From Dysgonamonadaceae bacterium (GTDB lineage: Bacteria; Bacteroidota; Bacteroidia; Bacteroidales; Azobacteroidaceae): a DNA stretch of 18,949 nt. A program made the position numbers and the translations under genes. The stretch spans positions 1-18,949 of the forward strand of contig JAIRSN010000043.1 of assembly GCA_031255425.1 (NCBI GenBank). Reading direction: 5' to 3'. Under the pieces are notes generated by a model, which worked only from the letters and a program-made list of their open reading frames with translations, made no database searches and was not told the origin of the DNA. This document shows positions 7,949-12,622 of this stretch, in pieces (the stretch's first letter is position 1; each line of letters begins with the position of its first letter).

Positions 7949-9010
7949 TTAATAACAGCAGAGAATTTCTTTCGACAAGGCTTGTGCCTTCTTTATTGAC
8001 TGCGGGTCGTCCTTGTTGATTCCGTACTTCTGAGCCAGCGGAACCGTGATGTGCAGTCCGGCGGAGATGCGGTTCGGATCTTTTATCAGCAGCTTATTTT
8101 CCAGATACAGGTAAACCCAGAAAGCCTTGTCGCCGTATTCGTCCTGCGCGATAAGGGTCAACCGTTCGCCGCGCCGGACTATCCGGTGCTTGACGGACGC
8201 GGCGGCTGCCGGTTCGACCGGTTTCTCCCGCATCCGGAGGGTGTCGCCCTCCCGCTTAAAGAGTTCCTCAATCGTTTGCGCGCTCACCGTATCCGCTACG
8301 ACGATGTCTTTCGGAGCGAGGTTGAAGATGGTGTCCTCGCGGTGTATCAGGTAAATGCTGTATGCCAACCCTGCCACGACCAAGAGGGCAAGCCCGAAGA
8401 AAATTTTTTCCCACTTGATCCGGAATTTCTCCCTTTCGTGCCTCGCGAACGGTCTCACCGGGACGTTGTTGAGGTGCGCTACGGGCGGTTCCGGTTCGGT
8501 TTCTTCTTCCAAGACTTCTACCTCCTCTTCCGGGAGTTCTGCTTCTTCTTCCAAGACTTCTGCTTCCTCTTCCAGGGGTTCTGCCTCCTCTTCCAGGGGT
8601 TCTATCTCTTCTTCCAAGACTTCTGTTTCCTCTTCCAGGGGTTCCAATGCCTCTGCTGCGGCGGCGGGTTCTTCCCCGTTTTCGCTGTCTTCGTCCAACA
8701 TCACGGCTTCGAAAAGGGCAAACGGTTCGTTCACCAGTTGCGCCAGATGATTGTCCGGAACAAAATTAATCTTGTAATGCGCCGGGATAAGCACCCGGTT
8801 CCCGGTGGTGACATCCACACTCTCCCGGTCTTCCACTTCCACCAGCTTGAAACTGCCGAGCCCTTTGACCTTAACGGATTTATCCCGGATAAGCGCCTCG
8901 TTTACCGTCTCGAAATATTCCCGGAGAAAGAGTTCCGCCTCTTTTTTCGGGATGCCCGCTTTTTCGGCAAGCAGCGAAACAAGCGTCTGCAAATTAATCT
9001 TGTCGTTCAT
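7949..9010 (-). CDS. HU-domain, transmembrane, LysM-domain fusion protein
   Basis: A 353-residue protein with a mixed architecture. Residues 1-100 are an HU/IHF DNA-binding fold (KVKGLGSFKLVEV, then VTTGNRVLIPAHYKINFVP). Residues 105-178 are acidic and hold seven exact heptads of the LEEEAEP type (125-173). A basic stretch (187-201, RPFARHEREKFRIKW) precedes one membrane helix (about 203-222). The tail (274-325) resembles LysM: HRIVRRGERLTLIA, EYGDKAFWVYLYLENK, then GLHITVP. There is no signal peptide, and the basic residues before the helix place the HU part in the cytoplasm and LysM in the periplasm. The gene overlaps the preceding HU gene by ATGA, indicating coupling. A role joining nucleoid to cell wall is inferred, not shown; similar HU/LysM proteins may already be annotated in Bacteroidetes. 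Confidence 0.88.
   Translation of the reverse strand: MNDKINLQTLVSLLAEKAGIPKKEAELFLREYFETVNEALIRDKSVKVKGLGSFKLVEVEDRESVDVTTGNRVLIPAHYKINFVPDNHLAQLVNEPFALFEAVMLDEDSENGEEPAAAAEALEPLEEETEVLEEEIEPLEEEAEPLEEEAEVLEEEAELPEEEVEVLEEETEPEPPVAHLNNVPVRPFARHEREKFRIKWEKIFFGLALLVVAGLAYSIYLIHREDTIFNLAPKDIVVADTVSAQTIEELFKREGDTLRMREKPVEPAAAASVKHRIVRRGERLTLIAQDEYGDKAFWVYLYLENKLLIKDPNRISAGLHITVPLAQKYGINKDDPQSIKKAQALSKEILCCY
8492..8638 (-). repeat. Seven in-frame 21-bp repeats encoding acidic heptads
   Basis: Seven tandem 21-bp units encode LEEETEV, LEEEIEP, LEEEAEP, LEEEAEV, LEEEAEL, PEEEVEV and LEEETEP. Being in multiples of three they could change copy number without breaking the frame, altering the length of the linker between the HU and membrane parts. 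Confidence 0.85.
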
Positions 9011-11645: not shown

Positions 11646-11708
11646 GGTTTGAGGGGAAAAATCGGACACGGCGCCGCCGCCCCTTTTGTGTTTCAAAGAA
11701 GCAGGGGC

Positions 11709-11738
11709 TTGAATTTTTGAAGATTTTCAGTACCTTTG
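11709..11738 (+). promoter_or_regulatory. Promoter for structured RNA copy B
   Basis: TTG (11709-11711), a 19-base spacer and TACCTTTG (11731-11738) form a good Bacteroidetes promoter. No protein gene follows for over a kilobase; the first thing downstream is the 5' hairpin of copy B. Confidence 0.65.
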
Positions 11739-12160
11739 CAGCGTTTTTATCAAAAAGCTGGTTAAAGAACAGCGAATTAATTGACATCATTGTATATTGG
11801 AAAAAGCGTTCGCTTTTTATTCTTGATTTAGAAATCTCAACAGTTTCGACGATTGCAGGAATAAGTTAGTAAGCGCTCGCGCAGGAAGCGTGGGCATGAC
11901 TTGTTTGCAATCGTGGGTAGTTGAGAACCTCTAAATCAGATAAAGTTACAGTTCCCGCGCTTTGTTTTTTTAAAGCTGTGGGAAAAATGGATACAACAGG
12001 GCATTCCGGCGCCGGTAAAGTTTTTTTTGAGCAAGGCCAAGACCTTTCCAACATCGCTAAATTCAATTGCTCAAAAGAGTTGGTTTATACCATGTTTATT
12101 TATTTATCATCGTGCAGCTTTACCGCGCCGGATTTTGAGGCGCAGCCTCTTTTATATTTT
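11739..12160 (+). ncRNA. Candidate structured RNA, copy B (unrecognised family)
   Basis: This element has a promoter, ordered helices and a terminator. Helices are: 5' hairpin CAGC/GCTG with T5/A5 (11739-11760); AAAAAGC/GCTTTTT (11801-11818); a long arm made of TGATTTAGA/TCTAAATCA (11824-11832/11930-11938), TCTCAAC/GTTGAGA (11835-11841/11920-11926) and ACGATTGCA/TGCAATCGT (11849-11857/11906-11914); an apical CGCGC/GCGTG stem (11878-11882/11888-11892); TTCCC+GCTTT/AAAGC+GGGAA (11952-11984); a long-range helix (12005-12020/12118-12132, one bulge) enclosing TTTTGAGCAA/TTGCTCAAAA (12025-12034/12067-12076). Copy A keeps the same helices with different bases, while the arm's apical loop of about 46 nt has only two substitutions. 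An 89-residue frame from 11921 crosses it but resembles no protein. I do not recognise the RNA family. Confidence 0.7.
12137..12160 (+). terminator. Terminator of structured RNA copy B
   Basis: GAGGC, loop GCA, GCCTC (12137-12149) followed by TTTTATATTTT is a typical intrinsic terminator. It lies four bases after the long-range closing helix of copy B. Confidence 0.75.
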
Positions 12161-12212
12161 AGTGAGGCAAGTTATAAGATTATATTTTAAGAAATAAGAG
12201 TTGTGAGAGAAG

Positions 12213-12258
12213 GGGGCGACGGATGCGGAAACGGGCAATCGGCCGCCCCTGTTTTTTT
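12213..12258 (+). terminator. Second terminator-like hairpin, in gene-free DNA
   Basis: GGGGCG (12213-12218) pairs with CGCCCC (12244-12249) and is followed by TGTTTTTTT. A further hairpin, AGGCGC/GCGCCT (12292-12297/12314-12319) with a short T-run, lies downstream. Together they fill the gene-free stretch 12161-12370, where I see no coding region. Confidence 0.4.
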
Positions 12259-12370
12259 CCCTTCCTGCCCTGTTTTTCAAAATAAAATAAAAGGCGCCGG
12301 CAACCGTCTTTCTGCGCCTGTTTTCAACCTGAAAAAGAATCAACCGGAACACGCTGTTGCCGTCAACAGG

Positions 12371-12622
12371 GGTTCCGGGTATGTCCCCCAGGGTTCCGGG
12401 TATGTCCCCCAGGGTTCCGGGTATGTCCCCCAGGGTTTCGGGTATGTCCCCAAAGGTTTCGGGGACATACCCCAAGGTTTCGGGGACATACCCCAAGGTT
12501 CGGGGGACATACCCAAGGGTTCGGGGGACATACCCAAAGGCTTGGGGGACATACCCAAGGGTTCGGGGGACATACCCAAAAGCTTCGGGGACATTCTCCG
12601 GGGCTTGGGGGGCATCCCCCGG
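12371..12622. repeat. Minisatellite of twelve 21-bp units with inverted cores
   Basis: Twelve contiguous 21-bp units. Units 1-4 (12371-12454) read GGTTCC or GGTTTC, then the core GGGTATGTCCCC, then CAG or AAA. From unit 5 on the core appears as its reverse complement (GGGGACATACCC) while the flanking GGTTYC and AAG keep their direction. Units 11-12 are degenerate. Units 1-4 can therefore pair with units 5-8 in one long hairpin centred near 12455. Because 21 is a multiple of three, frames stay open on both strands (GYVPQGS and GDIPKGS on plus; GYVPETL and GDIPGTL on minus), but I see no start signal or family match and do not call a gene. It lies between the 3' ends of RNA copy B and the helicase-nuclease. 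Confidence 0.9.

Follow-up and report, generated by a model that had tools for sequence, protein, structure and literature searches.

A covarying RNA repeated through Bacteroidota genomes: a candidate riboswitch-like leader

The locus and its conserved RNA core

The window analysed here is a stretch of 18,949 nucleotides of a Dysgonamonadaceae bacterium (contig JAIRSN010000043.1 of an assembly, G000 below, of 2.01 Mb in 274 contigs, 77% complete), and in its list of open reading frames positions 11739–12160 are flanked by two minus-strand genes, presumably FtsY-like and AddA/UvrD-like. An earlier note had read this interval, called copy B here, as non-coding DNA behind its own promoter, folding in an ordered way into an RNA of about 420 nt that ends in an intrinsic terminator, with a second copy, A, elsewhere in the window. 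Bacteroidota-type promoter boxes (CTTG and TACCTTTG) do lie directly before 11739, and from their position we infer that transcription starts just before the RNA. The 67-codon frame at 11988–12188 inside the stretch was rejected as coding, as a Pfam search gave it no match and the sister copies C175 and C115 have ACG for its ATG, and the non-coding reading holds. The ordered folding is borne out as well: the core folds with a z of −7.0 relative to shuffled sequence (none of 200 shuffles as good) and 11742–12260 with a z of −5.8 (none of 100). When the window was searched against Rfam 15 at E ≤ 1 the sole match was mir-767, a chance match far below the cut-off and outside the element, and ARAGORN found no tRNA or tmRNA in the window. 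The mir-767 match falls within 12329–12620, where nine 21-bp tandem units invert their orientation halfway, giving long imperfect inverted repeats; another 21-bp tandem repeat, at 8495–8683, lies within a minus-strand ORF (7949–9010) that encodes acidic repeats.

Two covariance models are used throughout, R1, built from 29 copies, and R2, a broader model from 57 sequences. The parts of copy B are as follows.

11708–11738, plus: Bacteroidota-type promoter, from sequence (−33 CTTG 11708–11711, 19 nt, −7 TACCTTTG 11731–11738)
11799–11967, plus: conserved core RNA (R1 match C84:11798-11967, 171.9 bits, E 3.8e-36; fold z −7.0)
11801–11818, plus: delta hairpin AAAAAGCGTTCGCTTTTT, whose A-run/GCG is able to pair also with the 3′ end of gamma
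11823–11832, plus: P1 5′ strand, partner 11930–11939 (helix 2: 97.7% paired, double changes in 8 of 10 pairs)
11835–11841, plus: P2 loop 1, partner 11920–11926, within GAAA/UUUC at 11831–11847 (helix 3: 99.5% paired, double changes in 7 of 7 pairs)
11850–11866, plus: P3 5′ strand, partner 11899–11913 (helices 4–5 of the covariation test)
11873–11880, plus: alpha, the P4 5′ strand (helix 7; 399 of 399 cells paired)
11888–11895, plus: beta, the P4 3′ strand, with gamma as alternative partner
11899–11913, plus: P3 3′ strand, partner 11850–11866 (covariation test)
11920–11926, plus: P2 loop 2, partner 11835–11841, within GGU/ACC at 11916–11929
11930–11939, plus: P1 3′ strand, partner 11823–11832 (covariation test)
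11950–11960, plus: gamma strand, complementary to beta and epsilon
11978–11984, plus: epsilon of copy B (GTGGGAA), predicted to form a nested hairpin with gamma in this copy
12006–12131, plus: second 3′ domain P6, in which CCGGCGCCGGTAAAG (12006–12020) pairs with CTTTACCGCGCCGG (12118–12131), including the CATGTTTAT segment at 12091–12103
12137–12161, plus: terminator-like hairpin GAGGC-GCA-GCCTC followed by TTTT
12213–12258, plus: second, stronger terminator-like hairpin followed by T7, resembled by sequence downstream of C175 and C115

The conserved unit is not the proposed RNA of about 420 nt but a core of about 170–200 nt; copies A and B share a 54-nt stretch that is 94% alike and a 41-nt stretch that is 80% alike, and their 3′ halves differ in sequence. 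The P6 domain was noted among copies of the source genome. A terminator-like hairpin is indeed present at 12137–12161, but as the end of the RNA it fares less well: it is a scattered short repeat (10 short matches around q426–476 elsewhere in the genome), it is missing at the equivalent place in C175 and C115, and a stronger hairpin follows at 12213–12258. The repeat as a whole (12132–12169, GGCGGC..GCCGC and a T run) occurs at about 10 other places in G000, and also just upstream of several promoters of the RNA. Copies B, C175 and C115 form a diverged type: gamma and epsilon are predicted to fold there as one nested hairpin, and terminator-like hairpins, then no family gene in the sequence read, follow them; copy B is by its sequence an orphan copy that keeps the core.

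Covariation and distribution

The covariation of the core is overwhelming. Over 57 sequences from many genomes, 95.0% of the cells of 46 nested pairs are paired, compared with 71.7% in shuffles, and there are 599 double-change cells compared with 162; none of 500 shuffles reaches either value. Double changes are present in 41 of the 46 pairs, a control with partners slid by 1–3 columns leaves 35–42% paired, and compensatory double changes are seen in 19 of 54 predicted pairs within the source genome alone. P1, P2 and the variable part of P3 show all four Watson–Crick types, and the loops are constant. P2 is probably a loop–loop helix between two short hairpins, a reading adopted because the GGY:RCC pairing, which crosses P2, covaries between U-A and C-G (Fisher p 1.3e-11 over 138 of 140 sequences: 106 U-A, 16 C-G, 15 U-G and 1 C-A, with 2 unmatched by the search expression). 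GAAA/UUUC also changes in step in several sequences, by eye, and a purely nested P2 was dropped on these two grounds; the G of that GAAA pairs in P1 too, so the junction of P2 is placed approximately. Three loci near contig ends (L013, L021 and L022) have 5′ and 3′ halves that mismatch in P1–P3, and these would be either chimeric assemblies or products of recombination between paralogues.

Copies A and B, the two that had been recognised before, are both real, but R1 finds 33 copies in the source genome, and a further fragment with the 3′ half only lies outside these at the end of C115. With copy B as query, BLASTN gave 44 matches in its own assembly. Of the first 30 loci in this genome, 15 are cut off by a contig end inside the 500-nt query span, as repeats that interrupt assembly would be. 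Beyond this genome, R1 has matches in 30 of 45 genomes of the family and in at least 96 of 295 genomes of the order, and R2 in at least 61 of 395 genomes of the phylum, the last two being lower bounds because 9 and 7 candidates, respectively, were scored per genome. Seven genomes chosen for their many matches, with 150 candidates scored in each, hold 118, 105, 81, 53, 51, 24 and 16 R2 copies, the first in a genome of about 2.8 Mb. On the strand opposite a true copy the models can still score 34–40 bits, so matches below about 45 bits are doubtful.

An exact DNA pattern searched over 84,980 species matched at least 111 stretches. Among the 80 matches listed, 78 are named as Bacteroidota or a subgroup and 2 as uncultured bacterium, with Candidatus Symbiothrix, Dysgonomonas, Rikenella, Odoribacter, Chryseobacterium, Empedobacter, Sphingobacterium and Niabella among them, and R1 confirms all 80 (weakest E 4.9e-6); as far as seen, the element is confined to Bacteroidota. 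A phage or plasmid origin was set aside, as blastn of copy B against plasmids and phages, blastn of a Chryseobacterium copy against plasmids and one exact-pattern scan of viral contigs all gave nothing. Very similar copies occur in different genera or orders (L132, L144, L153, L163, L183, L127, L162, L116, L170, L233, L243, L250), several of them upstream of small response-regulator-like genes, which suggests that a unit with such genes may have moved by horizontal transfer.

Rfam scans of 21 homologous loci (10 at the gathering cut-off, 11 at E ≤ 0.1) gave no match, so that neither the window nor these loci hold a known family at its cut-off, as had been suspected, and the RNA class is absent from the catalogued families tested. 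The idea of a structured RNA class that Rfam does not match, with many homologues and strong covariation, is upheld by the 46 pairs and by model matches across Bacteroidota.

An IS-like element, which we take to be IS110-like, abuts the RNA at one exact point, directly behind the YYCRCG of gamma, in all five places found among 43 genomes searched: L303 (G000:C48), L302 (C249), L300 (C110), L301 (G043:C97) and L299 (G011:C23). One source labels a homologous fragment as transposase, and one weak 29-bp match to the IS end (G043:C17, E 5.8e-4) lies away from any RNA. The bridge RNA of an IS110 element is encoded in its non-coding end, beside the recombinase. Here the IS-like end is present at the five joints and has only three matches in the own genome, where the other copies lack that end; the DNA of the RNA seems to be a specific target of the IS-like element.

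Genes behind the RNA and the partners of gamma

In 112 of 139 non-redundant homologues a TANN(N)TTTG box is present in the 150 nt upstream, compared with 45 of 139 on the reverse strand. Among matches with enough 3′ sequence (82 found by model and 65 by pattern), a same-strand ORF of 120 aa or more starts within 450 nt in 66 of 82 and 49 of 65, against 18 of 78 and 16 of 61 in mirror controls, and one of at least 60 aa follows in 72 and 59, respectively. The ORF begins within 100 nt in 44 of 82 and 43 of 65 (median starts +57.5 and +54 nt). Because the core mostly precedes a same-strand ORF (66 of 82, 18 of 78 in the mirror), the view of it as typically a discrete 420-nt RNA was given up: the class without an Rfam match and with covariation stands, but by position the element is chiefly a 5′ leader of mRNAs and not a free RNA of that length. 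Downstream proteins look exported in 45 of 72 and 33 of 52 cases by a crude home-made signal-peptide rule that carries no genome background. Pfam families among 124 of 132 downstream proteins include TonB Plug (8) and CarbopepD_reg_2 (9) of SusC-like receptors, BspA-type LRR_5 (6), response regulators (9), Fib_succ_major (4), HlyD_3 (2) and CsgG (2), and no shared metabolic theme was seen in the best 25 of 40 and the best 25 of 91 families.

The last conserved strand of the core, gamma (AGUCCCACGC), has its complement in beta, on the 3′ side of P4. The beta:gamma pairing has 97.1% of cells paired, a value reached by 1 of 500 shuffles, and double changes in 4 of 7 pairs, but in covariation score 105 of 500 shuffles do as well, so that this score is not above them. 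Variation in P4 and beta:gamma is low, at 5 double-change cells, and the proposed switch therefore rests on few changes. Gamma is also complementary to epsilon, the loop of a hairpin that starts about 20 nt past gamma (AAACCCA/UGGGUUU, AUGUCCC/GGGACAU and AGUUCCA/UGGAACU are examples of gamma and epsilon), and matched gamma:epsilon pairs exceed swapped ones with a z of 11.2 (0 of 2000); the controls were null, with 1006 of 2000 for a region further downstream and 123 of 2000 for another part of the core. Per-sequence support (p ≤ 0.05 against shuffled letters) is found in 35 of 88 and 23 of 68 sequences, that is 58 of 156, so epsilon is not universal; such support is not seen in the class-level SusC-type leaders L226, L227, L230, L235, L237, L239 and L248, among others. 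The distance from epsilon to AUG is 18–27 nt in 30 of 63 cases and 13–42 nt in 41 of 63, a spacing that stands without a null for cases selected by the presence of an ORF and a good gamma:epsilon score. Gamma is followed by a U-run (at least 6 T in 8 nt) in 119 of 140 sequences, and the 5′ A-run is a further potential partner of this run (P0, 94% paired).

Copy A is a FISUMP-type leader with the following parts.

474–481, minus: −7 promoter element TATTTTTG, from sequence
258–423, minus: core RNA (R1 match C84:258-423:-, 178.4 bits)
265–274, minus: gamma strand, from sequence
223–249, minus: P5 hairpin with epsilon loop CGGGACT, from sequence
188–211, minus: 7-codon leader ORF MEHIQSI, its ATG 21 nt after epsilon
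51–181, minus: P6 domain, 162–181 pairing with 51–70

Copy A carries the four segments quoted before; its 3′ half differs in sequence from that of B, and it reaches the contig end with no terminator. In the source genome the leader precedes paralogous secreted proteins (FISUMP domain, PF09603, in 3 of 4 tested; 232 homologues for one of these), and duplication of the gene family carrying the leader along could account for part of the 33 copies. Here an AUG lies 19–21 nt after epsilon in 18 of 24 copies examined, near the position of the gene start in other genomes, and in 16 of the 24 it opens a 7-codon ORF (MKHIKKI, for example), the protein ORF following some 200–560 nt past the core where the sequence reaches that far. 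Two relatives were compared: in G023 the AUG is at +22 to +26 after epsilon in 19 of 20 copies, often opening MQNKS, and in G018, where the core was recognised in 16 of 20 copies retrieved, 9 of these 16 have a two-codon ORF at +27; leader ORFs range from 2 to 66 codons.

A proposed switch, its rivals and known systems

The element looks like a switch over the making of cell-surface and other proteins, and we consider it likely that it is a riboswitch-like leader RNA exerting cis-acting, switch-like control of translation. Transcription would begin just upstream of the core, and the RNA folds into P1, the loop–loop P2, P3 and P4, all backed by covariation. Gamma could then pair with beta, freeing alpha, or alternatively with the loop of the epsilon hairpin, about 20–26 nt before the AUG; complementarity and covariation are observed here, and an exchange between the two states is what we infer from them. 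The state of gamma would set ribosome access to that AUG, at the spacing observed. This AUG starts either the gene or, where the leader is of FISUMP type, a short ORF, behind which lie a further stretch of leader and the gene for the surface protein; in this type the short ORF would couple the state of gamma to what follows. The conserved U-run past gamma leaves room for control of termination too, and a metabolite, an ion, a protein or a small RNA are candidate triggers. Of the properties expected of a riboswitch, the 5′ leader site is seen by position, a complex covarying structure is present, and, as regards exclusive structures coupled to an AUG or terminator, the alternative helices and the AUG spacing are observed.

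Protein sites on RNA are usually simpler than a large core with loop–loop pairing, and this elaborateness speaks against a leader whose loops are recognised by a phylum-wide RNA-binding protein (or a small RNA) that gates translation of many envelope genes. We nevertheless regard such a leader as possible, if improbable on balance, since its targets are diverse and often exported-looking (45 of 72 and 33 of 52 by the crude rule without background), the genes served have no common metabolic theme in the best 25 of 40 and of 91 families, and Bacteroidota possess global RNA-binding proteins such as RbpB (PMC11697453). A transcription attenuator, with beta:gamma and the U-run as intrinsic terminator and alpha:beta as antiterminator, would account for the U-run in 119 of 140 sequences and the 97.1% beta:gamma complementarity. 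It is unlikely, since the loop closed by the stem would be long, at 54 nt in copy B, the U-run is equally able to pair with the 5′ A-run (P0, 94% paired), own-genome copies mostly have no U-run directly after gamma, and epsilon, being downstream of the U-run, could not act in the termination decision.

The tens of copies per genome, the contigs that end near them (15 of 30 own-genome loci and many in G018 and G023), the IS-like element joined at one site in five of five places found and the near-identical copies in distant genera (L132, L144, L153, L163, L183) could also be those of a dispersed repeat or mobile element, a DNA hairpin of the attC or REP kind that plays no part in regulation. 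This is very unlikely, given that the copies are oriented consistently relative to genes and promoters, stand at a regular distance from the AUG and have helices with all four pair types beside constant loops; gene-linked orientation and promoter speak in particular against an integron attC site, the recombination site of cassette arrays beside an integrase. Least probable is a trans-acting, stand-alone RNA family whose place in mRNA leaders is a by-product of location; copies B, C175 and C115 would fit it, as they bear terminator-like hairpins and the sequence read past them shows no family gene, but a same-strand ORF follows most copies with enough 3′ sequence.

The cis-acting leader switch may also be part of something larger, a claim we advance tentatively and at somewhat less than even confidence: a new phylum-wide class of riboswitch type, in which one signal would set the surface and secreted repertoire through tens to more than 100 leader switches per genome. 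These would be read out next to the AUG as the four strands alpha, beta, gamma and epsilon trade partners, and in surface-protein families through a minimal leader ORF. The 118 matches in a genome of about 2.8 Mb would exceed the copy numbers known for riboswitches. Translation initiation in Bacteroidota differs from the Shine–Dalgarno type, and the element would offer a testable handle on the tuning of envelope proteins in this phylum; the covariance models from this analysis can annotate the class. Structured leader RNAs of such size and spread are seldom overlooked.

Cobalamin and purine riboswitches have kissing loops and pseudoknots near the ribosome-binding site. The element resembles them in its 5′ leader site, in a loop–loop helix in its core and in a 3′ strand that may swap partners near the start codon, and differs in having no Rfam model at cut-off, another gene set and up to 118 matches per genome. 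In the literature covered, with supplements and most subscription journals outside its scope and Rfp18 of Flavobacterium psychrophilum (PMC9723704) considered by description, we recognised no account of the element, although an unnamed candidate may exist elsewhere. The comparative-genomics motifs of Weinberg 2010 (PMC2864571; Bacteroidales-1, Flavo-1, 6S-flavo and others) are likewise structured RNAs of Bacteroidetes, and those with Rfam entries match neither the window nor the 21 homologous loci. Candidate RNAs of the human microbiome (PMC8040213), also from comparative genomics in Bacteroidetes, are shorter (examples of about 40–132 bp) and have other gene contexts in the text of that report, though some of the candidates may overlap with the element. 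The FopS RNAs of Bacteroides are paralogous sRNAs, with 14 members in B. thetaiotaomicron, built of a single-stranded 5′ stretch with a seed and one terminator hairpin and targeting other mRNAs (PMC11697453). Both they and the element are multicopy RNA families of Bacteroidota tied to the expression of envelope proteins; in place of an unstructured 5′ seed and a single terminator hairpin, however, the element has a core that is helical from P1 to P4, and it is a structured leader in cis.
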